From assembly GCA_029959085.1 (NCBI GenBank), contig JARWIR010000001.1:22869730-22933729 (forward strand): a stretch of DNA of 64,000 nucleotides. Reading direction: 5' to 3'. How positions within the stretch are numbered: the stretch's first letter is position 1; every line of letters starts with the position of its first letter. This document shows, piece after piece, positions 1,712 through 48,894 of the stretch. This stretch comes from Nemophila menziesii. Lineage: Eukaryota > Streptophyta > Magnoliopsida > Boraginales > Hydrophyllaceae. The position numbers and the translations under genes were made by a program. A model generated the notes under the pieces. That model ran no database searches, was not told the DNA's origin, and was given only the letters and a program-made list of their open reading frames with translations.

Positions 1712-1974
1712 CTAACATTTCTGGAAAGTATTTGCCATGTGCCTTGCCTTCTTTACTAACTTGTCCGCCCGAGAGTTGAGGTATCGAGGTATGTGCTTGA
1801 ATGTGACAGATCGTACATCCTCTGTCGGCTTGATGATTTTCCTCAGCATGGGCTTGATCTTCCAACTAGCTGCCGATGCTTGTTTAATATCTTGAATTGG
1901 TTCAAGTTTATCCGAGGTGATGGTCTTCTCTTCTTGTTTAAGTTCCTTGCGAATCTTTAATGCCTTGATAATAG
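1712..1974 (-). pseudogene. RNase H domain relic, C-terminal part, split by the compound insertion
   Basis: Read on the minus strand, this gives an open frame ending in a TAG at 1712-1714. It contains the conserved tail of plant RVT_3-type RNase H domains: FKHIPRYLNSRADKLVKKA, where HIPR, the N and the catalytic AD pair are the family landmarks. The frame is cut at 1974 by the retrotransposon block and resumes in phase at 48895, where FEGETQAIIKAL supplies the preceding helix. Only one copy of CTATT is needed to rejoin it. A stop sits just upstream at 48935-48937, so the domain was already degenerate. It is probably the 3' end of an old LINE; a host RNase H-like gene is less likely. Confidence 0.6.
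1970..1974. repeat. Target-site duplication (left copy), aatag
   Basis: These are the five bases immediately before the LTR start TGATGTCTCC at 1975. The same five bases follow the LTR edge GGAGACATCA at 48889. Five base pairs is the usual Ty3/gypsy TSD length. Confidence 0.85.
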
Positions 1975-3540
1975 TGATGTCTCCTCATTTGTGATAGTAA
2001 AATACACTCTTGAGACATCATTTTAGGCTTATTTATTAGTTTATAGGTTGATTTTAGCTTAATTTAGTGCACTTTCCTATTTTGAGTCTTGATTTGTAGA
2101 ATTATTATTTTTAGAGCATATTGGGTTTAATTGTTTATTTAGTGTGAAGCTTTAAAGATAATTATGGAGATTAATTAGAGTCCAAGTCAAAGATTACAAC
2201 TTATGGAAAGAGATATGCATGGAAATTGGAGATAGAAGGAAACTGAGTTCAAATAGGAAAAGGAAAAGCTGCCTAAATCTGGGATTCTGCAGAACACGTC
2301 TAAAGATTGGTGTTTTTACCTAAGAAATAGGCTGAATTTGGTAATTTCCTTCTAAAGGTCCTAGATAATTCTGTTGCGATTCTTTTGGTATCTTGTGGAG
2401 CAAAATCCGACCAATAACAAAGAAGTTATGACCAAAACAACGCAGCAGTGTTTATCTTACGAATTTGGGTTGGGCCAGGAGCCCATTACTTGAAGTTATC
2501 TCCAAGAAACGAATTAGGTCAACCTCTAACCTATAAATACAGCCTCTTAACACTCTTAAATTATCCTTGGCCAGACCCTAAGGCCAAGAGGAAGCTGCAA
2601 CACAAGAGAAGAAGTCTGGAGGGAGCTGTGCAACAACTATGTCTCCTTCAACCTCTTATTTTGTAATTCTTTCTTCTTCTTTTCTTTGTATGAACTAATT
2701 CTCTTAGCTTAGGTTTTGCATAATGTATAATCTATGAATTCTAGTTCTTCTATCTAAGTTCTTTGGGAATTATATGTTTTAATCTGATATTAGCTACTTA
2801 CCCTTATATTTGATTATGTGTTTTGATTTAATGACTGTTTTCCTTGCTAGTGCACGAGTATAGGATTACCTTAATAGTAGTTAGATGGTCACCTTGTAAG
2901 GGTGTTTAACTATTGAACCACCACATAACGTCTAGTGTCGATAGCAGTTCTGACAAAACATACTTCTAACTAGATAGTCATTACGGTTTGTTTTAACCAC
3001 CATATCACCAAGATTGCAGTATTTGCTTAGGGCCTTAGTGGCGTTTGATAACCCTATTTTAAATCACTTCTTGGTTGTGCCGTTGCCCCCTTAGTCGCTC
3101 TCAAGGTCTAAGGTAGTGGAATTTAGAATCCTGACTAAGTATACCAAGAGCTAATATTCTCCCTTATGAATTAGATTTAATAGATAGAATTAGAAGGATT
3201 AGTGCTAACTAGTAAAACCTAAGTTATATCGTTCATACTATCTTCTTTACTTTTCTGTTATTTATTTTATTGTCTTTAATTTAGTAGTTTAGTTTTCTTA
3301 TTAAAAACCAAATAAATATCTATCTTTCTCTTCTTTCTACTTGCGTATTATTATCTATCTTTAATATCTGCACTTGATAATTTGCATAAGTTCTCTCTAA
3401 CTTTCGTCAGTCCCTGAGGAACGAATCTTCTTATCATTAAAACTTGCATACGTCCTGTAATACTTGCAGTACAGTGTTAGTTTAGGGTGTGTATTTGCAC
3501 TTATTTATATCATTATTTTATCACACCTTAGGCCACACCA
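1975..3540 (+). repeat. LTR type A (5' LTR of E1)
   Basis: This 1566-bp LTR starts TGATGTCTCC and ends GGCCACACCA, just before the primer-binding site. The probable promoter is TATAAATA at 2532-2539, which is conserved in all the Athila LTRs here. Its inverted copy at 41421-42986 has the same length and the same sequence wherever I compared them, whereas the 3' LTR of E1 (11811-13289) is a different, 1479-bp type. Short ORFs inside the LTR are not genes. Confidence 0.9.
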
Positions 3541-3546
3541 AGTTTT

Positions 3547-3564
3547 TGGCGCCGCTGCCGGGGA
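3547..3564 (+). other. Primer-binding site, tRNA-Asp-like (E1)
   Basis: TGGCGCCGCTGCCGGGGA lies six bases after the LTR. It is close to the tRNA-Asp-complementary site known from Athila elements. It would prime minus-strand cDNA synthesis. The same 18 bases occur in all the other PBS copies of the block. Confidence 0.85.
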
Positions 3565-3666
3565 CTACATCGTTAGTCCTTGTACATATATCTTGTGCTT
3601 TTATTTTTAGTTAGTTCTATTTTACGCTTTTTGTTTTTAGTTTTTGTTTTTCAGATTTAGTTACAG

Positions 3667-6600
3667 ATGGAGAACCCAAGGAGACTTGAGCTACCCATCG
3701 AGTTCAGAGTGGAGCCACGAGGAATTCGCGCTCCAGAAATCCAAGCCGCGAAATTTAAACCTGATCCTGGGATGCTAACTCAATTTACATCTCATGGATT
3801 ATTCAGCGGAGATGCACATCAAGATCCGATCCGATATATTCAGAAATTCATGCAAATCTGTGATGCTTATATCGTAAGAGGAGTTACTAGGGAGCAAGTA
3901 TATTACTTGATGTTTCAGTTCTTCTTGACCGGATGTGCAAGCGATTGGTACGATACCCAACACCCTCATGTTATTCCAGATTGGGACAAGCTCCAAACAA
4001 GATTCCTAGACCGTTTTTATCCGGTTAGTAGACGTTTAAAAGAGATGTTGGAGCTTGAACAATTTATACAAGAAGAGGAAGAGAGTTTGGGTGAAGCATG
4101 GTTACGATTTACAGAGAAGAAAGCGAGGTGTCCATATCATAGATCCTCGCCAGAATATTATTTAACCTTGTTTTATGGAGGCCTTAATGACAAATCAAGA
4201 GAAAAAGCAGATTCGGTAGGAAACATAGGTTTTGTGTTGCTAGATCCTATAGAAGCTGAGTTGGGGATGGAAAGAATTCTTGAGAACGAGAGAAGTTGGC
4301 CAAGGAAATCAGTAAAGGAGAACAATTCAGAATCTCTAAAGCTTAAGGAATTGGCTAAACAACTCGAAGAGCTGACAGAACAAGCCCGAACAATTGCTCA
4401 GGTAAATATGGTACGCACAATTCCTTCGTGTCTGGGTTGTGGATCAAGAAATCATGTGTGGTCAGGATGTATGAATAATCCAGCAGTAGCTTCCGTTCAA
4501 TATCCTCAAGAAAGCTACGCTAGTTATCAACAACCTCCACAACAAAGAAGTGGGGACAGAAAACAAGAAGCTAATCAGCAATCCCAACTTCAACCTGATA
4601 ATCCTCCACAACCCATTCAGAAAAAGGCACCCAGTTTGAAGAAAACTTGTCAAGAACCGAAGAAAGATCCACCTAAAAAATCAATGCAATTAGCAAAACA
4701 AGAACAACTCCAGAGTTTGACTTCAAGTATGACTAAATTAATGGAAACCGTTGAGAAGAAAATAAATTATAGCCAACAAAAAGTTCGAACTCAGGAGAAG
4801 GTTATAAAGCAACTAGAGCATACTATATCACAGATGGCGAGTACATTACAAACTAGGCCGAAGGGGCAACTCCCAAGTGATACTGTTGCTCCTAGGGACG
4901 ATTCTTGCCATGCAGTTGAATTGAGAAGTGGAAAACAACTACCTCCACCAAGACCAGAACCTATCCCTATTCCAGAACAAAGGGGGGAGGAAATAATCAA
5001 GGATACAGCCAAGGAGGTAGTTAAACCGAAGAGTGTCCAAGCCGAGACACCTGATAAGACAAGACAACCAGTGGAACTCAATACACGCCCTCCACCACCA
5101 TACCCTTCACGTGTCAGGAAGAAGGACAATGACCTGGAATTCAAGAAGTTCATTGACATGTTGAAGAAATTAGAAATCAATATACCCCTTGTTGAAGCTC
5201 TCAAGAGAATGCCAAGCTACATGAAATTTATGAAAGACATTCTCTCCAACAAGCGAAGTATAGAGACTGGGGAACCAATTGGATTACCTAGGGAGTGCAG
5301 TGCTATATGTCAAAATGAGTTGCCACCAAAACTAGAAGATCCCGGAAGTTTTACAATTCCCATCGGCATTGGAGAAACTTGGACCGGGAAAGCATTATGT
5401 GATTTAGGTGCAAGCATCAATCTCATGCCTAAATCCCTGTTCGAGAAGCTTAATATCGGAGAAGTAGTACCTACATCTGTGGTACTACAAATGGCGGATC
5501 GCTCCCTCTCACGACCAATAGGTAAAATTGAAGATGTTTTAGTTAACGCGGGCTCTTTTATTTTTCCTTGTGATTTTATTATCCTTGACTACGACGCGGA
5601 TAAGAATGTCCCCATCATTTTGGGTAGACCATTCTTAGCCACGGGGCGTACACTAATTGATGTTGAGAATGGTGAGTTGATCATGAGAGTACAAGGCGAA
5701 CAGGTACGATTTAATGTGTTTCAAGCTATGAAATATCCTAAAGCGAAAGACGAGTGCTTCAAGGTAGATGTCATCGAAAAAATTACGCAAGAAATCTTCA
5801 ATGAAGAAAGCTTAGAAAATGATCTTGACAAAGCCTTAGCACCTGAAACACCAGAACTCGAGATTCCCCCTGAAGATGTTGCTGCATTAGGGTTTAACAT
5901 ACGAGAACTACTTCGAGAGCCCGGTGACATTGAACCAATGAAACAACCATCTATAATATGTCCACCTGTTCTCGAAGAAAAACCACTTCCAGATCACTTA
6001 CGCTATGCATATCTAGGTACGAACAAAACTTTGCCTGTTATTATTTCTGCTAACCTTTCAGGTCCTCAAGAGGAGAAGCTACTTCAAGTACTTCGCGCAA
6101 ACAAAGAAGCAATCGGATGGACTATTGCTGACATCAAGGGAATTAGTCCTTCCGTTTGCAAACACAAAATCATTCTTGAGAACGAAGGTGGGCGATCTAT
6201 AGAGGGACAGAGAAGACTCATGCCAGCTATGAAAGAAGTGGTGAGGAAGGAAGTTATCAAGTTGTTAGACGCAGGAATTATCTATCCGATTGCTAGCAGT
6301 GATTGGGTTAGTCCAGTGCAGTGTGTTCCTAAGAAAGGAGGTTTTACCACCACCCTTAATGATCAAGGCGAAGCCATACCATCAAGACCAGTTGTGGGGT
6401 GGCGCGTGTGCATGGACTACCGGAGGCTGAACAAAGCAACAAAGAAAGATCACTTCCCGTTACCTTTCATTGATCAGATGCTAGACAAGCTTGCAGGGAG
6501 AGAATATTACTGTTTCCTAGACGGATATTCGGGTTATAATCAGATTTGTGTGGATCCCCTTGATCAACATAAAACAACTTTTACATGTCCGTTTGGTACT

Positions 6601-8874
6601 TTTGCTTACAGAAGAATGCCGTTTGGTTTATGCAATGCACCTGCCACGTTCCAGAGGTGCATGATGGCTATATTTTGGGACATGATTGATAAATATTTGG
6701 AGGTTTTTATGGATGATTTTTCGGTGTTTGGAGACAGTTTTGATGATTGTTTGAGTAATCTAGAGAAAGTCCTTGTGAGATGTAGAGAAAAAGATCTCGT
6801 GCTTAATTGGGAAAAATGCCACTTCATGGTTCAAGAGGGAATTGTGTTGGGACATAAAGTTTCGAAGGCAGGGATGGAGGTTGATCGTGCTAAAATTGAA
6901 GTTATCAAAACACTACCACCTCCGGTTTCTGTTAAAGGAGTGAGAAGTTTCTTGGGTCACGCAGGATTTTATCGACGATTTATTAAAGATTTCTCCAAGA
7001 TCGCCAAACCGCTCTGCTCTTTACTTGAAAAGGATACTCCTTTTAATTTTACTGGAGAATGTCTTCGCGCGTTTTTGACGATTAAGGAAAAACTGATCTC
7101 TACACCTGTTGTTATACCTCCTGATTGGAACGCTCCGTTTGAACTTATGTGCGATGCTAGTGATCACGCTATGGGTGTTGTGTTGGGACAGAGGAAAGAC
7201 AAGATTTTCCACACGATTTATTATGCAAGCAAGACTTTCAACGCTGCCCAGATGAATTATACAGTAACGGAGAAAGAGATGTTGGCCGTGGTTTACGCTT
7301 TCGATAAATTTCGTCCCTATCTGGTTGGGAAGAAAACTATTGTATACACGGACCATTCAGCTATTAGGTACCTCATGGAGAAAAAGGACGCTAAGCCGCG
7401 TCTCATTAGATGGGTACTATTGCTACAAGAATTCGACATAGATATTCGAGACCGAAAAGGATGCGACAATCAAGTTGCTGATCATTTATCAAGGCTCGAA
7501 GGATCTGATGCGAACAAAGAACCATTATCGGTTAAAGAGGTATTCCCTGATGAACAACTTTTTGCTATTAAACGTGCTTTTGTGCCGTGGTATGCAGATC
7601 TAGTCAACCTCATTGTGAGTGGTGTCTTTCCCAAAGATTTCCACCCACAACAAAGACAAAGATTGAACCACCAGGCCAAACAATATTATTGGGATGAACC
7701 GTACCTCTGGAAGATATGTAGTGACCAAGTGGTTAGAAGATGCGTACATGAAGGTGAGATGGAGAAAATTATTGAAAGTTGTCATAGTTCACCTTACGGA
7801 GGTCACTTTAAGGGCGATAGAACCGCAGCTAAAATTCTTCAATCTGGGTTCTATTGGCCAACCATACACAAAGATTGTCACAGTTTCGTCCAATCATGTC
7901 ACAGATGCCAAAAAACTGGCAACATATCGAAAAGAGACGCAATGCCGCTTAATAATATTCTTGAAGTTGAAATCTTTGATGTATGGGGAATAGATTTCAT
8001 GGGACCTTTCATCACTTCCTATGGAAATGTTTATATTTTGCTTGCAGTAGACTATGTATCAAAATGGGTAGAAGCAGTGGCAACACCAAAGAACGATGCT
8101 CAAACAGTGATTAAATTCTTAAAATCAAACATCTTTTCAAGACATGGTACGCCACGTGTTCTCATCAGTGATAAAGGTACCCATTTTCTTAATGCTCCCG
8201 TGAGACATTTTCTTAAAAAGTTTGGAGTGAAACACCGTACTTCAACCGGTTATCACCCACAAACTAACGGTCAAGCTGAAGTTTCCAACCGGGAAATCAA
8301 ATCTATTCTTGAGAAGACCGTGAACAAATCAAGAAAAGACTGGTCTTTAAAGCTAGATGATGCTCTCTGGGCATACAGAACAGCATTTAAAACACCAGTT
8401 GGGGCATCTCCATATCGCATGGTCTACGGCAAAGCGTGTCATCTACCGATTGAACTAGAAGCTCGAGCCTACTGGGCTATTAAAACTCTGAATCTAGACC
8501 CAGACTTGGCCGGGAAACAAAGGATGATGCAATTGAACGAATTGGAGGAGCTTCGTTATCATGCCTATGAAAATTCACGTCTCTATAAGGAGAAAACAAA
8601 GCGATGGCATGATAAACGGATCCGTCCAAAGAATCTCGAGATTGGACAGAAGGTTTTATTATACAACTCTCGATTTTCAAACTACCCAGGAAAGCTTAAA
8701 TCCCGTTGGGAGGGACCTTACATTGTTACCAAAGTCACACCGCATGGAGCAATTGAGATTGAAAATCCAGCCGAGCAACGGACATTCATGGTGAATGGCC
8801 AGCGTTTGAAGAGATACTATGACAGTGAGGACTTTGAGCAAGGAGAGAAAATCTACCTTGTCGAATGCGATTAG
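3667..8874 (+). CDS. Athila-type Gag-Pol polyprotein (E1), intact
   Basis: This is a 1735-aa single ORF with every catalytic motif of a Ty3/gypsy retrotransposon. Gag occupies roughly residues 40-230. A CX2CX4HX4C zinc knuckle lies at C255/C258/H263/C268, followed by a Q/P-rich linker. The protease has DLGAS with Asp at about 579 and a later ILGRPF motif. Reverse transcriptase has YRRLNK near 918 and the FMDD active site at 1014-1017. RNase H has CDASD near 1162 and TDHSA downstream. Integrase has its zinc-binding region from H1373 on, and D1443, D1502 and E1538 with exact DD35E spacing, then a GPYIV-type C-terminal tail. No frameshift or stop separates gag from pol. The ATG at 3667 lies about 100 bases after the PBS. 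The translation is identical to E2 (17754-22961), so this copy is very young and potentially active, encoding capsid, cDNA synthesis and integration functions. Confidence 0.95.
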
Positions 8875-9806
8875 CCTGAGGTACACGTCTAACTCAAAGA
8901 CGTTAAACAAAAGTGCTCTTGGGAGACACCCCTTGTTTTAATTGCTTTTTAGATTAGTTGTTTTTGCTTTGTAGTGTTTAGTTTTTAGTTAGTGTAAATT
9001 TTTAATTGTGTTTTCAAGCTAATGGGAGAGAAAGGTAGTGTGTTATTGTGCAGGAAACGAGTTTGGGGTCAAAAAGGAAAAATCTGGAGGAACTTCAAGT
9101 CTGGCGCGGACTACCCCGCGGACTACCCCATGGTCCGCAGGGATGCACCGCGCCCCAAAAACCCGTACCACGGGTTGGCTAGCTCGGGTTTTATCCAGAA
9201 GGTCGAAAAAAATCGCGGGGCATGGCGCGGTACACCGGACCCTAGTCCGCGCGCCTAAAACCCGTACCACGGGTTGGGTACCTCGGGTTTTTTGACGGAC
9301 ATGCTGCGGACTACCCCCTGCACCGCACCCCTGGTCCGCGACCCAAAAACCCGTACCACGGGGTGCTAGCTCGGGTATTATCCAGTAGGTAAAAATTTTG
9401 GAGCAACAGAAGCTGCGGTACACCGCGGGATATGTCCGGTGCACCGCAAGAGGCGGTTTAAGAAGGAATTCTTTTCCTAATCAAACTCTTACCTTATGAG
9501 ATTAACCCTAGCCTTCCACCCACGAATTTTTCAGACCCAAACCCTATATAAACATCTTAAAGCTTGTGCAAACCTTCACAATTAACACAAACAACTCATC
9601 AAATCCTCTCCATCATCTTCCATAAACACAATCCTTCATCAAATTCATCACACTACACCATCAAAACACCATCAAATTCAACAAGCTTTAAAGAGTTCTT
9701 CCAAGATCAATCCAATAACCTTTCTCTTTAACCAATTCCAAGCTACAACATCAAGCTACACCAATTTTCCTTAAAATTTTAATCCATCCGTGGTATAACT
9801 TGAGTT
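8875..9806 (+). other. Inter-ORF region of E1 with GC-rich leader
   Basis: This is non-coding spacer between pol and the 160-aa ORF. It contains the GC-rich hairpin array (about 9100-9440) and then an A/C-rich leader with many short CATCAAA-like repeats. The overlapping 78-133-aa frames run through repeats and are not credible genes. Confidence 0.6.
9100..9440 (+). repeat. GC-rich hairpin array (E1)
   Basis: The imperfect palindrome AACCCGTACCACGGGTT (7-bp stem, 3-base loop) occurs at 9160-9176 and 9259-9275, with a near copy at about 9348. Around them are repeated GCGGACTACCCC, GGTCCGC and GTGCACCGC motifs in imperfect units of roughly 90-100 bp. The region is much richer in GC than the rest of the element. 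Homologous arrays occur in E2, E3, E4, E5 and F, including copies without pol, which suggests a cis-acting RNA or DNA role. Confidence 0.7.
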
Positions 9807-10289
9807 GTGGGTGAATCAAGTATGACTAATAGATCTGAAGCTATGGAATACAAGAGAAAGTGTTCAATCCTTGGGAAGAATAAGAAATTGCCTGGAGCTA
9901 CCATTGAAAAACCCATCCATATTGATGAGGTTTCTGAAGAATCAAAAGAACAGGCACCTGAACAACCACTACCAAAGAAGAGATTAACTGCTAGAATGTC
10001 CACACCATCAAGGAGGCCTTTAGACAAGATAAAAATCCAAGACCAAGGTTCTTCTACCTCCTCTTCCAAAATTGCTTATGATCTTCCTCCTTGGGCGATT
10101 CAGTTACAGAACGAAGTTGAAAGATTACGTGAAGATAACAAAGACCTTTGGGTAGAAATCATGCAATTGGAAACAAGGGTAGATAATTCGACCTTGTACA
10201 AGGATATAGATGATTACACCGATCCCTCAGCTTCAGAAGATGAGGATGACATGATGGATCTCTATGGCCAGCCAGGTAAGTCATTCTAA
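9807..10289 (+). CDS. 160-aa coiled-coil ORF downstream of pol (E1)
   Basis: This short acidic/basic protein begins MGESSMTNRSEAMEYKRK and has a charged, Pro/Ser-rich middle. A predicted coiled coil follows, around residues 95-130 (WAIQLQNEVERLREDNKDL), and the tail is acidic (SEDEDDMMD). The MTNRS start resembles MTNRTS near the start of the 399-aa ORF of E3 (32233-33432), which occupies the same position after pol. I infer that E1 carries a shortened version that lost the central domain. No membrane segment or signal peptide is visible, so it is not an envelope protein. Its function is unknown. An identical copy exists in E2. Confidence 0.6.
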   Translation: MGESSMTNRSEAMEYKRKCSILGKNKKLPGATIEKPIHIDEVSEESKEQAPEQPLPKKRLTARMSTPSRRPLDKIKIQDQGSSTSSSKIAYDLPPWAIQLQNEVERLREDNKDLWVEIMQLETRVDNSTLYKDIDDYTDPSASEDEDDMMDLYGQPGKSF

Positions 10290-11810
10290 TTTTTCTCAAT
10301 AGCTTGGATGCATTAGGTAGTTTAGTTAGTTTTATTTTAAATTTTATTTCATGCTTGAGTCTTTTTCGAGTCGTGGGGACACGGCTCACTTTTGAGTTGG
10401 GGGTGGGGATTCGTTGTCCTCATCTTCTTTTCGTTTTTGCATAAAATTTAAAATTTTTTAGGTTGAATTAGGCATAGAATATCTTTGAATGTACCTATTG
10501 AGCATGATTTTATTAGGTCAATGATAGTAAGTAGTATGCTTTTGAAAGATGCAACAAAATTGTTTAGATGCATGCATGAAAACAGGAAATAAAGGATAGA
10601 AAAGTTAATGAACAATGCTAAGAAATCACGTTGAAACTTAGGGATAGTTATTTGGTGTGTAGAACGTGAGGTTTAAAATTAGTTGAAAACCCACTTGTCT
10701 ATGAACTATTAGTGAAAAAGTAACGAAATCCGGTAGTTAGAAAAATGACTAAGGCAATTCTTTCATGATAAAACACTTGAAGCCTTTAGACTTTCTCACC
10801 CTTTTGTTTGTTATTTATCCGTCTTAGCCCCTCTGAGCCTTTCTAAAGCCTTTTATTTGAAACACATTATAATCCTTACCATAGTTTTTAGGACTTATCT
10901 ATATGACCCGCACTCGAATCGCAAAACCTGAGACACTCGTTTTAGAGCTTGAGTTTGGGGTGGTGGGTTTCATCATTAGGGAACTTTGGGAATTTTGGAA
11001 TTATCTTTGTGATTTTATTGATGATGAATTGTTATTATTGTAACCCTTTGCCGGGGTAATAGTGAATGAAAAAGAAGCTACGAGCTAAATTTGCCAACAA
11101 GGGCATTAAAAAGAAAGAATATATATATATGAAAAATAGCGTGATATCTCGAACATCCAAAAGAGAATCATGACTATACAAAAGAAAAAAATTGATTTGA
11201 AAAGAGAATATATATTCGGACCGGCAAGGAGGATTTTATATCATCAAAGGTTTTAATTGGGATTATTGGGGATGCACATTAAAAAGTATCAATAAATTGG
11301 GTTGAGTGAGAACATCTTCGAGTGAACAACTCAAGCTCTAGGGCGATTCGTTGATGGCTAGTGAGGAGAGAGCCAAAAGCTCACTTTTCATTATCCAAAT
11401 ATACCACACCCGTCCTTAAGCCAAGTTATAACCAAGACCTTAGGATTTCTGACTACTAGGTGGAGAAACAATTGAGCTATTAGGTAGTAGGTAAGTGGAT
11501 CATTAGATGCTTTATTTGGGACCTATGAACAACCTATAGCCATTAACCTGAACTAAGTTATCATCCTCTCATTCTGGCATTGCGAAATTAATCTTAACTT
11601 GAATTTATGGAATGTTGATTACATGTATATTAGGCATATTTGAGTATTATTTCTTGAGCATTACTACATGAGACTTTTTGGATTTTATGCTCTAGGATCA
11701 TTCATTATATTTTGTTCTTGTTCTCCTCCGACTTCTTCTTGTTTATATGACTACCCTACTGTTCTTTACTTTTATTGTATCGGGACGATACAACTTTGAG
11801 TTGGGGGTCT
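10290..11810 (+). other. 3' non-coding region of E1 with polypurine tracts
   Basis: This is 1.5 kb without a credible ORF, conserved in all relatives in the block. The polypurine tract (PPT) TTTGAGTTGGGGGT lies at 11795-11808, followed by CT and then the LTR at 11811. It would prime plus-strand cDNA. A perfect 14-base copy of the same tract lies internally at 10391-10404. Confidence 0.7.
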
Positions 11811-13289: not shown

Positions 13290-13338
13290 ACTTGCATACG
13301 ATCTATTGATGAGCTTCAATTTATTTTTATCACACCCT
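13290..13338. other. 49-bp spacer at the centre of the palindrome
   Basis: This filler sits between two U5 ends. It reads as three pieces: AACTTGCATACGATCT, found inside the LTRs; TTGATGAGCTTCAAT, found in the internal leader region (for example near 45386); and TTATTTTTATCACACCCT, matching the U5 end of the E3-type LTR at 37459-38997. It is not itself a palindrome. Confidence 0.75.
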
Positions 13339-28700: not shown

Positions 28701-28706
28701 AGTTTT

Positions 28707-28724: not shown

Positions 28725-28885
28725 CTACATCGTTAGTCCTTGTGCAATTATCTTGTGCTTTTATTTTAGTTAGTTCTATTTTACGCTTTTCTTTTTAGTT
28801 TTTGTTTTACAGATTTTTTTTAGGCGAAAGCAGATTTATTAGGAGATAAGGGTCTCGTGTTATTAGATCCTGAAGACGCTAATTC

Positions 28886-30626: not shown

Positions 30627-30635
30627 GAGACATCA
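30627..30635 (-). repeat. Nine-base remnant of the 3' LTR of E3
   Basis: GAGACATCA is the U3 edge of an Athila LTR on the minus strand, followed by AG and the PPT (30638-30651). The remaining 1.5 kb of the LTR is missing. Confidence 0.6.
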
Positions 30636-37293: not shown

Positions 37294-37434
37294 TGTGAAA
37301 CCTGAAAAAGACTAAAGCAAACCCAAGCGTAAATCTGGAAAACTAAAAACTAAAACTAAACTAAAACTGAAAAGTAAAAACTAATTAAAAACTAAAACTC
37401 GAAATAGATAACCCACACGCTAACGAGACACAAG

Positions 37435-37452
37435 TCCCCGGCAGCGGCGCCA
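37435..37452 (-). other. Primer-binding site (E3)
   Basis: The tRNA-Asp-like site on the minus strand, six bases from the LTR edge at 37459. Confidence 0.85.
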
Positions 37453-37458
37453 AAAACT

Positions 37459-38997
37459 TGGTGTCGCCTAGGGTGTGATAAAAATAAGATCAATTTAAGT
37501 ATGGAAAACTATGCACTCTCACCCTAGACAGGCACAGTACTGCAAGTATTACAGGACGTATGCAAGTTTTAATGATAAGTAGAGTTCGTTCTCAGGGACT
37601 TAAGTGTGTTAAACGCGTAAGAACAGATAACGAGTAAAAGTAAATAACTAGAAGACAGTAAATAAATATTTGGTTTTTCGAATTTATGAATTAAAACTAA
37701 ATTAAAACTATGAAAATAAAGACAATAAAGTAAAAGATTAAGAATATGAGATGAGAAGTATAGCTTAGGTTTTGCTAGTATGCACTAATCCTTCTAATTC
37801 TATCTATAGATCTAGTTCATAAGGGAGAATATTAGCTCTCGGTAATACTTAGTCAGGATTCTAAATTCCACTACCTTAGACCTTGAGAGCGACTAAGGGG
37901 GCTACGTCACAACCAAGAAGTGATTTAAAATAGGGTTATCAAACGCCACTAAGGCCCTAAGCAAATACTGCAAGTCTTGGTGATACTGTGGTTAAAACAA
38001 ACCTTAATGACTATCTAGTTAGAAGTATGTTTTGTCAGAACTGCTATCGACACTAGACATTATGTGGTGGTTCAATAGTTAAACACCCTGTCAAGGAGAC
38101 CATCTAACTACTCTTAAAACAATCCTAAAGTGATCAATTCTAGGAAAGACAATAAATCAAAACACATAAGCAAATATAAAGTAAGAAGCTAATATCAGAT
38201 TAAAACATATAATTCCCAAAGAAACTTAGATAGAAAAATTAGAATTCATAGATTATACATATGCAAAACCCAAGCTATGAGAGGTTTAGTTCATACCTGA
38301 AGGAAATAAACTAAAAGAAATAATAAAAGACATCATCTTGCTCTCTACAATAAACTGGAAGAATAAAACCTTAAGAACTAATTACTATGAGGCAAGGATG
38401 ATTTACAAGTGATATAAGGGTGTATTTATAGGTGTTTAGAAGACCTAATTCGTTTTCTTGAGGAAGAGTTAAGGTAATGGACTTCTAGCCCAACTCAAAT
38501 TCGTATGGAAATAAAGATAAACACTGCTGCGTTGTTTTGGTCATAACTTCTTTATTATTGGTCCGATTTTGCTCCACAAGATACCAAAAGAATCGCAACA
38601 GAATTTCCTACGCCCTTTAGGAGTAATCTACCAAATTCGGCCTCTTTATTAGGTAAAAACGCCTATCTTTGCAGAATCCCAGATTTAGGCAGCTTTTCCT
38701 TTTCCATCTTTTTAGCAATTCTTTCCTTATCTCCAATTACCATGCATATCTCCTTCCATAAGTTGTTGTCTTTGACTTGGACTCTAATTAAACTCCATAA
38801 TTATCTTTAAAGCTACACACTAAATAAACAATTAAACCCAATATGCTCTAAAAACATTATTTCTACAAATCAAGACACAAAACAGGAAAGTGCACTAAAA
38901 CTCAAGAAAATCGACATTATTGACTTCTAAAACACTAAAAATGATGTCTCATCTTAATATAAATCTATCACAAATGAGGAGACATCAAGTATAGAAC
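37459..38997 (-). repeat. 5' LTR of E3 (distinct type)
   Basis: This 1539-bp LTR has a U5 end of GGCGACACCA and a U3 edge of GGAGACATCA at 38997. It is diverged from types A, B and C. Its outer edge is followed by AG and filler. Confidence 0.85.
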
Positions 38998-39024
38998 GTA
39001 TAAGAAAAAACTTATACAATCACA
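38998..39024. other. Joint filler between E3 and G
   Basis: After the retained AG there are about 25 bases of filler, including a perfect 7-bp inverted repeat, GTATAAG-aaaaaa-CTTATAC. Element G then starts at atagatcaactg. Confidence 0.55.
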
Positions 39025-39885
39025 ATAGATCAACTGTGCCACATCTTCTTCTTCTCCTCATAAAATACAATTCAAAAACAACCCAAAGCATTCCAAATCT
39101 CCATGAACCTTCATGTATTCACCTTCAACTTCTTCTTCAAATACTTTCTCATAAGAAAAAGGTAGTTTCTTTAATTGTTACTTCGGAGAAGCTGTCATGG
39201 CCATTGAAGCTTTCCCTTTTTCTTCGGGTGTAAGGTCTTTGATTTGTAGAGGTTGTGTTGTCTTCTTCACCAAAGTTAGAATCTTTTTGCTCATTGAATC
39301 AAACACAGCTAGCTAACCTCTCTTCTCTTGACTTGTTTTACCCATTGAATTGGAACTAGGACTTTTCTCACTTGATTTCTTCTCAATTAGATCCAATACC
39401 TTGATTTCTTCATCTCCCTTACAGTAGATAATGTTCATGTTCTCTTAATCATCTCAATTGACCCCCAACTCAAAGCTTTAACCACTCTTGAAATTTGGAA
39501 CTCTTGCTTATTGGTTGTACAAGCTTAATTTGGGTTAGGAAAAGTGATTTGATGATGATTCTCTATGTGGGTAAGATGGATTCTTCATGGATTGGCTTGG
39601 ATTTAAGAAATTGTAGGATGAATTTTTGAAAATTTAAGCTTTTGATCTTGGATTCAAGGTGTTTTGGGATGATATAGGTGGTTGAATCTTCCTTGTAATG
39701 ATGTGGAGAATGAATTGGATGTGTTTTCATGGTGATTGGGTAGTGTTTTGATGATTGGTGAAGGTTTTGATGAGCTTCAATGGAGTTAGGAGAGTTGTGG
39801 AGGAGAAAAAGAGGGTTTGGGTTTATAAAATTCGGAACTAAAAGCTTAATACCTCCTTTATAATCAAATCCCGTAGGTTTTTCTC
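39025..39885 (-). mobile_element. Fragment G: internal remnant of a severely deleted Athila element
   Basis: This is the mirror image of 24641-25501 (leader plus start of the broken extra ORF). At 39885 the leader is joined directly to the PBS, so gag, pol and the hairpin array are all missing. The left end is cut inside the extra-ORF relic. It has no coding capacity. Confidence 0.75.
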
Positions 39886-39901
39886 CCCGGCAGCGGCGCC
39901 A
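39884..39901 (-). other. Primer-binding site (G/H)
   Basis: The same 18-base site, fused to leader sequence through a CTCC/CCCC microhomology. Confidence 0.8.
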
Positions 39902-39907
39902 AAAACT

Positions 39908-41410
39908 TGGTATAACCTAAGGTGTGATAAAAAGATGTATAAAATAAGTGCAAATAAACACCCTAAGTTAACACGGTTCTGCAAGTATACAGATCGTATG
40001 CAAGTTTTAATGAATAAGTAAGATTCGTTCCTCAGGGACTACGAAGGTTAAGAAGAACTTATGCAAATTATTCAAGTGCAGATATTACAGATAGAAAAGA
40101 TAATACGCTAGTAGAAAGAAGAGAAAGATAGATATTTATTTGGTTTTCTAATAAATAAACTAAACTAATAAACTAAAGACAATAAAACAAATAAAAGAAA
40201 AGAAAAGAAGATAGTATGAAAGTCTAGCTTGAGTTATTAGCATGCAATCCCCACTAGTTTTGCCGTTCTAAACATGTAAGGGTAAATTATGTAGTATTTC
40301 CCTAATCGGTCCCAATATGCTATCGGTAGTTTAAAATAGGATTTACCTGTGTCAATAAGGCTTCCTAAGCAAACTTTTCCTGTAATTGGTAAAGAGTCAC
40401 AAGACTCAACCATAGTGATTATCTAGATAGGTTGGGTTGTCAGATCAGACCTAATACTAGACGTTATGTGCTAAACATGCAATTAAACACCGTTGTCAAT
40501 GGTGACCTAATTACTAGATGGTAATTCTATATGGGCGCGCATCCACAAGAACACAGAATATAAATTCAAACACATAAACAGAGAATCAAAACTATAATTC
40601 AATTTAAAACATTAAGTTCCCAAATTAGATAGATGTCAATCAAAACTAGGGTTCATACATATATGCTAAACACTCAAACTATAAAGAATTAATTCATACT
40701 AAGAAAAGAAGAGAAAAGAGTTACAGAATCAAAGGTAGAAGAAGACATATGGTGTTCTGCTCCTTCCAGACTTCTCCTCTTGTGTTGCAGCTTCCTCTTG
40801 GCCTTAAGGTCTGGCCAAGGATGATTTAAGAGTGTTAAGAGGCTGTATTTATAGGTTAGAGGTTGACCTAATTCGTTTGGTGGAGATAACTTCAAGTAAT
40901 GGGCTCCTGGCCCAACCCAAATTCGTAAGATAAACACTGCTGCGTTGTTTTGAGTGTATCTTCTTCGTTATTGGTCGGATTTTGCTCCACAAGATACCAA
41001 AAGAATCGCAACAGAATTATCTAGGCCCTTTAGAAGGAAATTACCAAATTCGGCCTATTTCTTAGGTAAAAACGCCTATCTTTGGACGTGTACTGCAGAA
41101 TCCCAGATTTAGGCAGCTTTTCCTTTTCCTATTTAAACTCAGCTTCCTTCTATCTCCAATTTCCATGCATATCTCCTTCCATATATTGTAGTCTTTGACT
41201 TGGACTCTAATTAATCTCCATAATTATCTTTAAAGCTTCACACTAAATAAACAATTAAACCCAATATGCTCTAAAAATAATAATTCTACAAATCAAGACC
41301 CAAAGTAGGAAAGTGCACTAAATTAAGCTAAAATCAACCTATAGACTAATAAATAAGCCTAAAATGATGTCTCAAGAGTGTATTTTACTATCACAAATGA
41401 GGAGACATCA
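39908..41410 (-). repeat. LTR of element G/H (type C-like)
   Basis: This 1503-bp LTR is close to the LTR at 27192-28700 but ends TTATACCA in the U5 sense. The U3 edge at 41410 is followed by AG and then directly by the next LTR unit. Confidence 0.85.
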
Positions 41411-41420
41411 AGCAAAAACT
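41411..41420. other. Two-LTR junction
   Basis: Only agcaaaaact separates two LTRs in the same orientation. On the minus strand it reads AGTTTTTG (bases that follow U5 up to the start of the PBS) and then CT (bases that precede U3). That is the sequence expected when the two ends of linear LTR cDNA are ligated. Confidence 0.75.
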
Positions 41421-42986
41421 TGGTGTGGCCTAAGGTGTGATAAAATAATGATATAAATAAGTGCAAATACACACCCTAAACTAACACTGTACTGCAAGTA
41501 TTACAGGACGTATGCAAGTTTTAATGATAAGAAGATTCGTTCCTCAGGGACTGACGAAAGTTAGAGAGAACTTATGCAAATTATCAAGTGCAGATATTAA
41601 AGATAGATAATAATACGCAAGTAGAAAGAAGAGAAAGATAGATATTTATTTGGTTTTTAATAAGAAAACTAAACTACTAAATTAAAGACAATAAAATAAA
41701 TAACAGAAAAGTAAAGAAGATAGTATGAACGATATAACTTAGGTTTTACTAGTTAGCACTAATCCTTCTAATTCTATCTATTAAATCTAATTCATAAGGG
41801 AGAATATTAGCTCTTGGTATACTTAGTCAGGATTCTAAATTCCACTACCTTAGACCTTGAGAGCGACTAAGGGGGCAACGGCACAACCAAGAAGTGATTT
41901 AAAATAGGGTTATCAAACGCCACTAAGGCCCTAAGCAAATACTGCAATCTTGGTGATATGGTGGTTAAAACAAACCGTAATGACTATCTAGTTAGAAGTA
42001 TGTTTTGTCAGAACTGCTATCGACACTAGACGTTATGTGGTGGTTCAATAGTTAAACACCCTTACAAGGTGACCATCTAACTACTATTAAGGTAATCCTA
42101 TACTCGTGCACTAGCAAGGAAAACAGTCATTAAATCAAAACACATAATCAAATATAAGGGTAAGTAGCTAATATCAGATTAAAACATATAATTCCCAAAG
42201 AACTTAGATAGAAGAACTAGAATTCATAGATTATACATTATGCAAAACCTAAGCTAAGAGAATTAGTTCATACAAAGAAAAGAAGAAGAAAGAATTACAA
42301 AATAAGAGGTTGAAGGAGACATAGTTGTTGCACAGCTCCCTCCAGACTTCTTCTCTTGTGTTGCAGCTTCCTCTTGGCCTTAGGGTCTGGCCAAGGATAA
42401 TTTAAGAGTGTTAAGAGGCTGTATTTATAGGTTAGAGGTTGACCTAATTCGTTTCTTGGAGATAACTTCAAGTAATGGGCTCCTGGCCCAACCCAAATTC
42501 GTAAGATAAACACTGCTGCGTTGTTTTGGTCATAACTTCTTTGTTATTGGTCGGATTTTGCTCCACAAGATACCAAAAGAATCGCAACAGAATTATCTAG
42601 GACCTTTAGAAGGAAATTACCAAATTCAGCCTATTTCTTAGGTAAAAACACCAATCTTTAGACGTGTTCTGCAGAATCCCAGATTTAGGCAGCTTTTCCT
42701 TTTCCTATTTGAACTCAGTTTCCTTCTATCTCCAATTTCCATGCATATCTCTTTCCATAAGTTGTAATCTTTGACTTGGACTCTAATTAATCTCCATAAT
42801 TATCTTTAAAGCTTCACACTAAATAAACAATTAAACCCAATATGCTCTAAAAATAATAATTCTACAAATCAAGACTCAAAATAGGAAAGTGCACTAAATT
42901 AAGCTAAAATCAACCTATAAACTAATAAATAAGCCTAAAATGATGTCTCAAGAGTGTATTTTACTATCACAAATGAGGAGACATCA
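41421..42986 (-). repeat. LTR type A (3' LTR of E5)
   Basis: This 1566-bp LTR is the inverted twin of 1975-3540. It is followed on the right by AG and the PPT at 42989-43002. E5's other LTR (47411-48889) is type B, so E5 too is a mosaic. Confidence 0.9.
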
Positions 42987-44499
42987 AGACCCCCAACTCA
43001 AAGTTGTATCGTCCCGATACAATAAAAGTAAAGAACAGTAGGGTAGTCAAGAAGAAGAAGTAGGAGGAGAATAAGAATAGAACATAATGAATGATCCTAG
43101 AGCAAAAAAATCTAAAAAGTCTCATGTAGTAATGCTCAAGAAATAATGCACAAATATGCTTAATATACATGTAATCAACAATCCATAAATTCAAGTCCAG
43201 ATTAATTTCGCAATGCCAGAAGGAGAGGATGATAATTTAGTTCAGGTTAATGGCTATAGGTTGTTCATAGGTCCCAAATACAGCATCCAATGGTCCACTT
43301 ACCTACTACCTAATAACTCAATTGTTTCTCCACCTAGTAGTTAGAAATTCTAAGGTCTTGGTTATAACTTGGCTTAAGGACGGGTGTGGTATATTTGGCT
43401 AATGAAAAGTGAGCTTTTGGCTCTCTCCTCACTAGCCATCAACGAATCGCCCTAGAGCTTGAGTTGTTCACTCAAAGATGTTCTCACTCAACCCAATTTA
43501 TTGATGCTTTTTAATGTGCATCCCCAATAATCCCAATTAAAACCTTTGATGATATAAAATCCACTTTGCCGGTCCGAATATATATTTTCTCTTTTCAAAT
43601 CATTTTTTTTTCTTTTGTATAGCTATGACTCTCTTTTTGATGTTGAGATATCACACTATTTTTCATATATATATTCTTCCTTTTTAATGCCCTTGTTGGC
43701 AAATTTAGCTCGTAGCTTCTTTTCCATTCACTATTACCCCGGCAAAGGGTTACAATAATAACAATTTCATCATCAATAAAATCACAAAGATAATTCCCAA
43801 ACCCAATGTTCCCAAATGATGAAACCCACCACCCCAAACTCAAGCTCTAAAACGAGTTGTCTCAGGTTTTGCGATTCGAGTGCGGGTCATATAGATGAGT
43901 CCTAAAACTAGGGTAAGGATTATAATGTGTTTCAAGAAAAGGCTTTAGAAAGGCTCAGAGGGGCTAAGACGGATAAATAATAATCAATAACAGGGTGAGA
44001 AAGTATAAGAGGCTTCAAGTGTTTTATCATGAAAGAACTGCCTTATTCATTTTTCTAACTACCGGATTTCGTTACTTTTTCACTACTAGTTCATAGACAA
44101 GTGGGTTTTCAACTAATTTTAAACCTCACGTTCTACACACCAAATAACTATTCCTAAGTTTCAACGTGACTTCTTAGCATTGCTCATTAACTTTTCTATC
44201 ATTTATTTCCTGTTTTCATACATGCATCTAAACATACTACCTACTATCATTAACTTAATAAAATCATGCTCAAATAGGTACATTCAACATATTCTATGCC
44301 TAATTCAACCCAAAAAAAAATTTAAATTTTATGAAAAACACAAAAAGGAAGATGAGGACAACGAATCCCCACCCCCAACTCAAAAATGAGCCGTGTCCCC
44401 ACGACTCGAAAAAGACTCAAGAAAAATAAAATTTAAAATTAGCATACAAATTGCACATAAAGAAATGGTAGGGAAGAAAGAAAACATACTCTTCGAGGC
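42987..44499 (-). other. 3' non-coding region of E5
   Basis: Conserved Athila 3' region with PPT copies at 42989-43002 and 44371-44384. The short frames are not credible genes. Confidence 0.6.
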
Positions 44500-45073
44500 T
44501 TTTACCTCGCCTAGACGATACTCGGATTAAATCTAATGTATCTTCTTCACCCAACTTCTTATTCGCTTTTTGTTCAGGACACGTGATCATAGTAGGATAT
44601 TGCATTAAATAACGTCATGGGAGAGATCAAAGATTCGTATCACCTCCTCATAGATCAACTGTGCCACATCTTCTTCTTCTCTTCACAAAATACAATTCAC
44701 AAACAACCCAAAGCATTCCAAATCCCCATGAACCTTCATGTATTCACCTTCAACTTCTTCTTCAAATACTTTCTCATAAGAAAAAGGTAGTTCCTTTAAT
44801 TGTTGCTTCGGAGAAGCTATCATGGCCATTGAAGCTTTCTCTATTTCTTTTGGGTATAAAGTCTTTGATTTGTAGAGGTTGTGTTGTCTTCTTCACTAAA
44901 GTTAGAATCTTTTTGCTCTTTGAATCAAACACAACATGCTAACCTCTCTTCTCTTGACTTGTTTTACCCTTTGAATTGGAACTATGACTTGTCTCACTTG
45001 ATTTCTTCTCAATTAAATCCAATACCTTGATTTCTTCATCTCCCATACAGTAGATAATGTTCTCTTAATCATC
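44500..45073 (-). pseudogene. Broken extra ORF of E5
   Basis: A start codon at 45073 follows a PPT-like tract (45082-45095), but the frame closes after about 19 codons. Pieces matching the 399-aa protein of E3 follow in shifted frames, and the central part is deleted, as in F. Confidence 0.6.
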
Positions 45074-46084
45074 TCAATTGACCCCCAACTCAAAGCTTTA
45101 ACCACTCTTGAAATTTGAAACTCTTGATTATTGATTGTACAAGCTTAATCTGGGTTAGGAAAGGTGATTTGATGATGATTCTCTATGTGGGTAAGATGGG
45201 TTCTTCATGGATTGGTATGGATTTAAGAAATTGGAGGATGAATTTTTGAAATTTAAGCTTTTGATTCTTGGATTCAAGGTGTTTTGGGATGATATAGGTG
45301 GTGGAATCTTCCTTGTAATGATGTGGAGAATGAATTAGATGTGTTTTCATGGTAATTGGGTAGTGTTTTGATGATTGGTGAAGGTTTTGATGAGCTTCAA
45401 TGGAGTTAGGAGAGTTGTGGAGAAGAAAAAGAGGGTTTGGGTTTATAAAATTCGGAACTAAAAGCTTAATACCTCCTTTATAATCAAATCCCGTAGGTTT
45501 TTCTCTCCCTTGCGGCGCTGCGGACTACCCCTGCGGACCATGGGGTGTACCGCGGGGTATACCGCGCCTCCTACGTCAAAAAACCCGTGGTAGGACTCCG
45601 TGGCACGTGTTTGTGCGGTGCATGGCGCGGTATAGGGTCCGGTATACCGGACCCATCAGCTATTTTTTTTTTTCGTTTCTGGATAAAACCCGCGGTAGCA
45701 ACCCGTAGTACGGGTTTTTGACCACGCGGTGCACCGCGGCTGAGGTCCGGTGTACCGCACGTGGAAAAAACCTCCCCAGCAGCTAGATCTCGAAAAGTTA
45801 TGCAGTTTAGGCTCAAAAATCACCTGATTCCGATATCCGAGCGCAAAGATATGGCTTGCCGAAGTTTCTGTCCAAAAAATTTTGCTCGCTTCCCTAACTC
45901 GATTTCTCCAATACCTAATCATCAAAAACACTAATACCTTTCTCAAATATGCAATATCAACTAAAATTAACTAATCTAAACATAAATTAAAAACTAAAAA
46001 CGTAAAAACATAAAAGAAATTACGGGTTGTCTCCCGTACAGCACTTTTGTTTAACGTCTTTCAAAGTTAGACGTGTTACCTCGA
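45074..46084 (-). other. Inter-ORF region of E5 with hairpin array
   Basis: Leader-type sequence up to about 45500, then the GC-rich array (about 45500-45775) with CCCGTGGTA, GGTCCGGTATACCGGACC and CGCGGTGCACCGCGG hairpins, then spacer. No gene. Confidence 0.6.
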
Positions 46085-47224
46085 TTAAGAATGACGAAAT
46101 TTCCACCCTTTGCCTTTAATTCCCACGAACTTTTCAGCTCGATTCTTTATAATCATGGATGGTGCCATCCAATATGTCGTGGGAATAGGTGGTAACTCAA
46201 TTCCAAGTGTAGCATTACACTCCTCTGGTAATCCATTCATCTCGAATCTTCGTTTGTTAGAAAGAATGTCCTTAATGAATTGACCGTATTTTGACATTCT
46301 TGTGAGAGCTTCTACAAACGGGCTACTGTTCTTTAATTTGTTCATCATGTCAACGAACTTCTTGAATTCCAGGTCATTGTCCTTTCTGACATGTGAAGGG
46401 AATGGTGGAGGAGGACATGTATTGGTTACCACTGGGCTCTCTTTCTTTTCTGGTGTCTTCTCTTGGACACGTTCTTGTTCAACTACCTCTTCGACCTTAT
46501 CTTCTGTTGCTTCTTCCCCCCTCTGATCTGGAATAGGGACTGGTTCTGGTTCTGGTCTTGTTGGAGGTAGTTGTTTTCCACTTTCTAATTCAACTGCATG
46601 ACAAACTTTGTTTTCTGGAGCAGTAGTATCACCTTGGAGTTGCCTTTCTGCAGGGATTAGAGTTTCATTCATCCTTTGTGACATTCTCTGCAACTTCTCC
46701 ATAAGCGCATTCTGCGAGTCTTGGGATTCTTGCTGGCGACTCTCTATATTATCAAGTGTTTGCATCAGTCGAGCCAAACTTGAACTCAAACTCGAAGGTT
46801 GTTTTTGCTGCATTGAATAAGGAAGTGGTTCTTGATAAGCTTCATTATAAATCGGCGCTTCTTGATAGATAGGTTGTGGAGGATAATAAGCTTGTGGTCG
46901 TGGTTGATAATAATCATCATGATAATGGTTATCATAATGACATGGTTGTTGATCTCCGACCCAATTGTAACTCTGTGGGGGTTGATAGTCAGCGTAATTT
47001 CCTTGAGATTGATAATAACCATCATGATAATGGTCTCTTTGATAAGGCATGAAGGAAACTGAGGCTGGATTGTTCATGCAACGTCCCCACGAGTGATCTC
47101 TTGCTCCACAACTAGGACATGAAGGTGAGGCATGTACTAGATTCCTCCGAGCTAGTTCTCGCGATTGTTCTCGTAATTCCTCAAGTTGTCGGCTCAACTC
47201 CTTGAGCTTTAGAGCTTCCATCAT
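46085..47224 (-). CDS. Truncated Gag-like protein of non-autonomous element E5
   Basis: This 379-aa protein is closely similar to the 382-aa protein of E4 (28886-30034). It has a CX2CX4HX4C knuckle near the N-terminus, a Tyr/Gln/Pro-rich stretch with repeated YHDDYYQP-like motifs, an acidic linker, [17 protein letters not shown] and a short integrase-tail-like end. The Gag N-terminus and all of pol are missing. The small differences from E4 show that E4 and E5 descend from separate copies of one deletion lineage. Confidence 0.75.
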   Translation of the reverse strand: MMEALKLKELSRQLEELREQSRELARRNLVHASPSCPSCGARDHSWGRCMNNPASVSFMPYQRDHYHDGYYQSQGNYADYQPPQSYNWVGDQQPCHYDNHYHDDYYQPRPQAYYPPQPIYQEAPIYNEAYQEPLPYSMQQKQPSSLSSSLARLMQTLDNIESRQQESQDSQNALMEKLQRMSQRMNETLIPAERQLQGDTTAPENKVCHAVELESGKQLPPTRPEPEPVPIPDQRGEEATEDKVEEVVEQERVQEKTPEKKESPVVTNTCPPPPFPSHVRKDNDLEFKKFVDMMNKLKNSSPFVEALTRMSKYGQFIKDILSNKRRFEMNGLPEECNATLGIELPPIPTTYWMAPSMIIKNRAEKFVGIKGKGWKFRHS

Positions 47225-47386
47225 GAATTAGCGTCTTCAGGATCTAATAACACGAAACCTTTATCTCCTAATAAATCTGCTCTCGCCTAAAAAGAATCTG
47301 TAAAGACAAAAACTAAAAAGAAGAGCGTAAAATAGAACTAACTAAAATAAAAGCACAAGATAATTGCACAAGGACTAACGATGTAG

Positions 47387-47404
47387 TCCCCGGCAGCGGC
47401 GCCA
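47387..47404 (-). other. Primer-binding site (E5)
   Basis: The same tRNA-Asp-like 18-mer on the minus strand. LTR type changes from B to the E5-type leader across this site. Confidence 0.85.
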
Positions 47405-47410
47405 AAAACT

Positions 47411-48889
47411 TGGTGGGGCCTAGGGTGTGATAAAATAAGATATAAAATAAGTGCAAAAACACCCTAGAACTACACGGTTCTGCAAGTATACAGATCGTAT
47501 GCAAGTTTTAGATAAAGATTCGTTCCGCAGAGACTACAGAGGTTAGGAGAATCTTATGCAAATACCAAGTGCAAATAATCAAAGCTAGAACAAGTAAACG
47601 CAAATAAAAGTAAAAATAAATAGATTTTTGTTTTGTTTTCTAAATAACTAAATTAAACTAAGAATAATTAAAAGACAGAAAATTAAATATGAAAGAGAAG
47701 TGATATGAGAATATAGCTTAAGTTATTAGCGTGTAATCCCCACTAGTTTTGCCGTTCTAAACATGTAAGGGTGAATCATGTAGTATTTCCCTAATCGGTT
47801 CCAATATGCTATCGGTAGTTTAAAATAGGATTTACCTGTGTCAATAAGGCTTCCTAAGCAAACTTTTCCTGTAATTGGTAAAGAGTCACAAGACTCAACC
47901 ATAGTGATTATCTAGCTAGGTTGGGTTGTCAGATCAAACCTAGAACTAAACGTTATGTGCTAAACATGCAATTAAACACCGTTGTCAATGGTATCCTAAT
48001 TACTAGATGGTAATTCTAATGGCGGCCGTCCACAAGAACACAGAATATAAATTCAAACACATAAACAGAGAATAAAAACTATAATTCTATTTAAAACATT
48101 AAATTCCCAAATTAGATAGATGTCAATCAAAACTAGGGTTCATACATATATGCTAAAACTTAAGCTAAAGAAAATTAGTTCATGAAAGAAAAGAAAGAAA
48201 TTACAAATCTAAAGGTAGAAGAAGACATTGTTGATGACAGCTCCTTCCAGACTTCTCTCTTGTGTTCTAAGCTTCCTCTTGGGTTAAGGTTTCACCAAGG
48301 ATGATTTAAGAGTGTTAAGAGGCTGTATTTATAGGTTAGAGGTTGACCTAATTCGTTTCTTTAGAGATAAGTTAAGTAATAGACTCCTAGCCCAACTCAA
48401 ATTCGTATGGAAATAAAGATAAACACTGCTGCGTTGTTTTGGTCATAACTTCTTTATTATTGGTCCGATTTTGCTCCACAAGATACCAAAAGAATCGCAA
48501 CAGAATTATCTAGACCCTTTAGGAGTAATTTACCAAATTCGGCCTCTTTATTAGGTAAAAACGCCTATCTTTGCAGAATCCCAGATTTAGGCAGCTTTTC
48601 CTTTTCCATCTTTTTAGCAATTATTTCCTTATCTCCAATTTCCATGCATATCTCCTTCCATAAGTTGTTGTCTTTGACTTGGACTCTAATTAATCTCCAT
48701 AATTATCTTTAAAGCTACACACTAAATAAACAATTAAACCCAATATGCTCTAAAAATAATAATTCTACAAATCAAGACCCAAAATAGGAAAGTGCACTAA
48801 ATTAAGCTAAAATCAACCTATAAACTAATAAATAAGCCTAAAATGATGTCTCATGAGTATATTTTACTATCACAAATGAGGAGACATCA
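47411..48889 (-). repeat. LTR type B (5' LTR of E5, right edge of block)
   Basis: This 1479-bp LTR appears identical to the E1/E2 type B LTRs. Its U3 edge GGAGACATCA directly abuts the TSD aatag with no extra AG. Confidence 0.9.
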
Positions 48890-48894
48890 AATAG
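48890..48894. repeat. Target-site duplication (right copy), aatag
   Basis: Matches 1970-1974. Deleting 1975-48894 rejoins the RNase H relic in frame. Confidence 0.85.

Follow-up and report, generated by a model that had tools for sequence, protein, structure and literature searches.

A 46.9-kb block of three LTR-retrotransposon families bounded by two U3 ends in Nemophila menziesii

How can a retrotransposon insertion come to have a U3 end at both of its edges, when a canonical long terminal repeat (LTR) retrotransposon presents U3 at one edge and U5 at the other, within the same 5-bp target-site duplication (TSD)? We address this question at a locus of Nemophila menziesii, contained in a stretch of 64,000 nucleotides (the window; G000:C1:22869730-22933729) on a 150.8-Mb contig, C1, of a 1.52-Gb, 361-contig genome, with the structure read from the assembly. 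Here a block of LTR-retrotransposon sequence starts and ends with U3 and is framed by one 5-bp duplication. We find that it consists of seven pieces from three related families, which we denote A, N and D, with six joints between them and both orientations represented. The processed U3 ends at both edges, together with the one duplication, make it likely that a single integrase event used two U3 ends. These ends probably came from two complementary DNAs (cDNAs) of one particle, and end joining, with five further pieces incorporated, probably sealed the resulting chromosome break; to this reading we give a probability of roughly one half.

Edges, empty site and normal copies

The block proper spans 1975-48889 (46,915 bp) and is flanked on each side by the sequence aatag. 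At the left edge aatag is followed by TGATGTCTCC, with 1975 as the first element base; at the right edge GGAGACATCA precedes aatag, and the last element base is 48889. A primer-binding site (PBS) follows each edge LTR on its inward side (3547-3564 on the plus strand and 47404-47387 on the minus strand), so both are 5′ LTRs that face outward. The TG...CA ends are trimmed at both edges, both are U3, and they share a single 5-bp duplication, for which the probability of a chance match between the flanks, given their base composition, is p = 0.0016. These terminus readings agree with a preliminary description of the locus, which had reported two U3 edges in inverted orientation sharing one aatag; its coordinates, 1970-48894, take in both TSD copies. 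The LTR starts (1975-2020 and others) also contain an inverted repeat, TGATGTCTC...GAGACATCA, that takes up about 46 bp of U3 and might form a fold or resemble an LTR end.

The host sequence was continuous before the insertion. When the flanks are joined over one aatag, they give a single match to RVT_3 (RNase H-like; profile positions 37-123) of 43.3 bits, whereas the left flank by itself reaches 28.8 bits. Searching the genome with the joined flank yielded 140 candidates, of which 40 were scored. The two halves in the window match the query at 1-239 and 235-343, overlapping by exactly the five duplicated bases, and the other 38 scored matches all cross the site uninterrupted. Four paralogs, aligned at 83.4-85.5% identity, have no gap at the insertion site (4/4), and the only gap that each alignment shows is some 30 bases to the right of it. 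The proposal that the two flanks had been contiguous, with an RNase H relic restored across them, is thus borne out, as is the empty site looked for at paralogous copies of what was taken to be a LINE. Trimmed TG...CA ends, a 5-bp TSD and a previously continuous site are together the features of integrase-mediated insertion. Outside the block, both host flanks carry a GC-rich repeat resembling a miniature inverted-repeat transposable element, in inverted copies of 84% identity (880-1050 and 49751-49921), with gcctaggcg motifs and TGTTCTAAAA/TTTTAGAACA-like ends.

Normal copies of these families end differently. The genome contains 5,626 copies (2803 + 2823) of the U3 terminus in which the base five positions upstream is not G, and we read 20 control loci of 10 kb each, all located in the first 10 Mb of C1 and chosen non-randomly. 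Ten of them have a U5 end (...CACCA) followed by the same 5 bp; these include one family N copy, L044, most of the others being D-like. Three family A loci longer than 10 kb (L034, L043 and L051) have far ends of U5 type (...CCACCA or CCGCCA), again with the same 5 bp. In total, 13 of the 20 controls could be resolved, as against seven that could not; all 13 are canonical U3/U5 insertions, and a second U3 pairs with the first in none (0/20). The 13 resolved controls therefore follow the rule, assumed in the preliminary description, that one side ends in U3 and the other in U5, and they include one or more canonical copies of A, N and D alike. Two further solo LTRs with U5 and a TSD (L026 and L030) were found among 31 three-kb loci. 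A pattern match 2,227 bases into L036 was discarded, as the preceding bases are no LTR end, as were matches in L028, which lie in a CACC-type simple repeat upstream of the LTR. The canonical copies served as references for the block: L043, L034 and L051 for A, L044 for N, and L045 and L047 for D.

Seven pieces and their joints

The pieces (Table 1) were defined by self-comparison, terminus readings and comparison with the canonical copies; neither the seven-piece, three-family composition nor the fillers at the joints figured in the preliminary account. Family A has LTRs, a PBS, a polypurine tract (PPT) and a pol order of reverse transcriptase, RNase H and integrase, which would place it in Ty3/gypsy, putatively in an Athila-like lineage. 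For N and D, the domain scan covered open frames of at least 150 amino acids: two N frames gave no Pfam match, and two D frames gave gag with protease and Transposase_32, respectively. N and D thus have LTR ends and the PBS in common with A but no pol domain in the scanned frames and, since reverse transcriptase and integrase were found only in A, they presumably use the enzymes of that family. Piece D is continuous in its interior with L045 (97.1%), and only about 10 bp of its 3′ LTR are present.

Table 1 Features of the block and its target site, in window coordinates
Feature	Position	Strand	Remarks
TSD (aatag), left copy, 5 bp	1970-1974		terminus reading
Piece 1 (E1), family A	1975-13290	+	outer 5′ LTR, type b, 1975-3540; PBS 3547-3564; 3′ LTR, type a, 11811-13289
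gag-pol open reading frame of E1, 1735 amino acids	3667-8874	+	Retrotrans_gag, RVT_1, RNase H, Integrase_H2C2, rve (scan of 3667-8200)
Joint J2 (E1/E2), U5 to U5	13290-13338		43-bp mosaic filler
Piece 2 (E2), family A	13339-24568	-	two identical a LTRs; U3 end retains AG
Joint J3, filler TATAC	24569-24573		CAAGTATACAG also present within LTRs
Piece 3 (N1), family N, circularly permuted	24574-30553	+	3′ part; PPT; LTR c1 27192-28700; PBS 28707-28724; 5′ part
Joint J4	30554-30626		A-rich run and 51-bp patch identical to N interior (24793 and 39733)
Piece 4 (D), family D	30622-38989	-	5′ LTR 37459-38987; PBS 37435-37452; U3 end retains AG
Joint J5, 35-bp filler	38990-39024		mostly without template in the window
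Piece 5, family N interior fragment	39025-39885	-	1 difference from N1 in 865 columns
Piece 6 (c2), LTR and PBS only	39884-41412	-	16-18 nt of PBS (2-nt overlap at J6); U3 end retains AG
Joint J7, 2-LTR type junction	41412-41413		U5 + TG joined to CT + U3
Piece 7 (E3), family N	41413-48889	-	inner LTR, type b (U3 start 42986); outer 5′ LTR, type a, 47411-48889; PBS 47387-47404
TSD (aatag), right copy, 5 bp	48890-48894		terminus reading

E1 and E2 lie in inverted orientation and show no difference across 3536-13290 (9,755 bp). At a substitution rate of 1.3e-8 per site and year, this identity would make the pair less than about 12,000 years old (95% bound), if the assembly is right. The inverted pair (3536-23092), with difference-free arms of 9.8 kb and a 43-bp spacer, could also yield hairpin RNA and silencing small interfering RNAs. 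E2 as a fold-back duplicate of E1 is ruled out, because its U3 end has the AG that the integrated end lacks and its outer LTR is of type a, not b.

Several pieces keep marks of reverse transcription. At the inner 3′ LTRs, CT separates the PPT from TGATG, so that an untrimmed U3 end of the cDNA reads CATCAAG on the other strand. The AG is retained at all three free inner U3 ends (24568, 38989 and 41412), for which the chance expectation is 2.3e-4, and is absent at both outer edges; this difference sets the end joining inside the block apart from the strand transfer at its edges. N1 has PPT, LTR and PBS in mid-piece, and its ends map to positions 3515 and 3519 of L044, a 5-bp overlap (AGGAG). 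Being permuted, with ends that overlap in this way on L044, N1 reads as an opened 1-LTR circle. The AGGAG overlap (24574-24578 and 30549-30553) equals the spacing of integrase cuts and perhaps records a failed strand transfer into the circle. Plus-strand strong-stop DNA extends from the U3 end to the end of the PBS, and c2, which runs from an untrimmed U3 to the PBS end, looks like such a molecule.

The inner joints combine untrimmed termini, microhomology and templated fillers, as expected of extrachromosomal cDNAs joined end to end. The J2 filler contains exact patches of 16, 15 and 18 bp, which recur in the U5 of LTRs a/c, in the N/D interior and in the D LTR, respectively. These and the 51-bp patch at J4 are exact copies of sequence in other pieces of the block; a rough calculation puts the chance expectation for any one 15-mer at about 1e-4 in 64 kb, counting both strands. 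J6, between pieces 5 and 6, has a 2-nt overlap and no filler. For three joint sequences, namely the left half of J2, the left half of J5, and J6, the 1.5-Gb genome contains a single match at no more than two mismatches. The general 2-LTR joint matches at nine places on six contigs including this block, some of them spaced by one LTR length (as search matches only), and other products of cDNA end joining seem to be present in this genome. Untrimmed U5-U3 joints at LTR-length spacing (1525 and 1576) were seen at G000:C353:402173-405250 and G000:C340:24131973-24133575, apparently in tandem LTR arrays.

Could the block have been built in steps, by a canonical insertion followed by nesting, inversions and LTR-LTR recombination, or by recombination with an older copy that needed no integrase? 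Nesting is frequent in plant genomes, and the 5,626 U3 termini attest to the abundance of these families. Integrase-independent tandem insertion has, moreover, been reviewed (PMC12786077). A canonical founder, however, has one U5 edge, and no ordinary later event would put a trimmed U3 there while keeping the TSD. Among 11 terminus readings compared, the only 5-bp matches are the outer aatag pair and one pair in the same orientation (AGTAT, after the U3 ends of E2 and D), which that orientation rules out as a TSD. The near-zero divergence between copies further argues against a long history, and we regard a stepwise origin as very improbable.

Exchanged outer LTRs and the order of events

The outermost elements suggest where the two U3 ends came from. 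The outer LTR of E1 is identical to the inner LTR of E3 (0 differences in 1574), and the outer LTR of E3 to the a LTRs of E1 and E2 (0/1480 in each of the six pairwise comparisons among the four a LTRs). The LTRs of canonical A copies are of type a, and the one canonical N copy that was read, L044 (7.58 kb), has a b-type LTR on each side. Given these identities, E1 and E3 hold each other's 5′ LTR, with the exchange point within the stretch around the PBS that both have in common. The exchange may reflect a reciprocal plus-strand transfer between co-packaged cDNAs.

On this basis we propose the following course of events. First, A and N RNAs would have been reverse-transcribed together, and their plus-strand strong-stop DNAs would have crossed over at the PBS, LTR b becoming the 5′ LTR of the A cDNA (E1) and LTR a that of the N cDNA (E3). 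Second, the intasome would have held a U3 end from each cDNA instead of the U3 and U5 of one, as the edges suggest, and would have inserted both 5 bp apart on opposite strands at aatag. Third, the chromosome would then have been broken, with a free U5 end on either side of the gap. Fourth, the gap would have been filled with the pieces that we observe between E1 and E3 (E2, the opened 1-LTR circle N1, D, the N fragment and the strong-stop-like c2); the microhomology and templated fillers at their joints would correspond to end joining of the polymerase-theta type or of the classical type.

The preliminary description had instead inferred that integrase used the two U3 ends of one large linear molecule. 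What stands of this is one event with two U3 ends of integrase type, to judge from TG/CA, the 5-bp duplication and the AG missing from the outer edges but kept inside; the single molecule is not required, and two cDNAs giving one U3 end each, followed by end joining, fit equally well or better. A chain made first, with cDNAs end-joined into a linear molecule of about 47 kb before integration, would produce the observed edges and single TSD. Joints of the 2-LTR type between untrimmed ends at eight other places in the genome, some at LTR-length spacing, indicate that cDNA end joining does reach chromosomes, and tandem insertions made in one event with one TSD have been reported in rice (PMC11899658). 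A chain of seven pieces would, however, need U3 at both ends by chance and still be recognised by integrase, and by itself it leaves the swapped 5′ LTRs of the outermost elements unexplained. We consider this order of events possible, but less likely.

Several points weigh against the two-cDNA reading. Whether the break or the chain came first leaves no trace in the sequence. The LTR exchange could instead have arisen later, if the interior was inverted by way of the roughly 50 identical bp that surround the PBS. A short marker, consisting of an a-like U5 and the N leader, was found at 20 further places, so N interiors may ordinarily have an a-like LTR; the use of this marker to call the E3 outer LTR unique was dropped, and the link of that LTR to E1 and E2 is by full-length identity only. 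That N has b LTRs is known from one copy, L044. The AG at the inner ends would likewise be present had trimmed ends been filled in. The reverse marker, in which a b-type U5 adjoins the E1 leader, has one other match, C1:106410871, which is ruled out as a b LTR: in the 701 bases there, the LTR part is 88% like type a and 82% like type b.

Finally, the block was read from assembled sequence alone, and the inverted, difference-free 9,755 bp of E1 and E2 are of the kind that might invite an assembly artefact, in which palindromic or repeat-rich reads are mis-joined among near-identical copies. Yet the edges adjoin one duplicated aatag in otherwise continuous host sequence, the palindrome is centred on an LTR end with a 43-bp mosaic filler and not on an arbitrary fold-back point, several distinct junctions resemble repair joints, and the contig spans 150.8 Mb; an artefact is thus unlikely.

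Significance and relation to known systems

More generally, we tentatively suggest that the integrase of plant LTR retrotransposons can bring together U3 ends from two different co-packaged cDNAs and so cut the chromosome, and that repair then captures products of reverse transcription, including circles and strong-stop DNA. If true, two-U3 integration turns transposition into a double-strand break and creates multi-family inverted islands of transposable elements at once. The block preserves, at one datable locus, apparent intermediates of reverse transcription: an opened 1-LTR circle, strong-stop-like DNA, untrimmed cDNA ends and a reciprocal plus-strand exchange. It suggests a route by which a genome could gain many elements at once, as inverted pairs with the capacity to form hairpin RNA, and also that nested clusters of transposable elements taken as long histories can be single events. 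No two-U3 plant insertion was recognisable among the papers listed by the literature searches, mostly at the level of titles and the starts of abstracts and with few subscription papers covered.

Tandem LTR-retrotransposon insertions in plants (Morales-Diaz et al. 2025, PMC11899658) likewise contain several LTR and interior units within one TSD and are read as single insertions. Tandem insertions are defined here by units of single orientation that have inner LTRs in common, whereas the block has three families, both orientations, U3 at both edges and fillers at its joints. The main text of that study has no word beginning palindrom- or concatem- and does not use the word orientation, and 'inverted' appears twice, both times in a reference title. 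Concerted integration by retroviruses and LTR retrotransposons gives a short target duplication and trimming of the U3 end, as in the block, but normal infection pairs a U3 with a U5 end (PMC11054761), in contrast to the two U3 ends seen here.

Capture of Ty1 cDNA at double-strand breaks in yeast places cDNA and templated inserts in the repaired break, as in the block; there, however, the HO endonuclease makes the break (PMC11724301), whereas the chromosomal joints of the block look integrase-made. Among the 1-LTR and 2-LTR circles and autointegration products described in yeast, J7 corresponds to a 2-LTR type joint and N1 to an opened 1-LTR circle, although in the block these forms sit inside one chromosomal insertion; the abstract of that study reports junctions with no sign of end-joined or autointegrated circles (PMC4751563).

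In Arabidopsis, an antisense nested insertion of EVD brings together two plant LTR copies of opposite orientation at one locus, as here, but one copy lies inside the other with its own TSD (PMC11624286), whereas the pieces of the block are joined end to end under one outer TSD. The closest analogue of the exchange proposed for E1 and E3 is intermolecular second-strand transfer in HIV, in which LTRs are exchanged between co-packaged RNAs; the HIV cases are retrovirus database sequences (PMC5651808), whereas the block holds a reciprocal pair in one plant locus.

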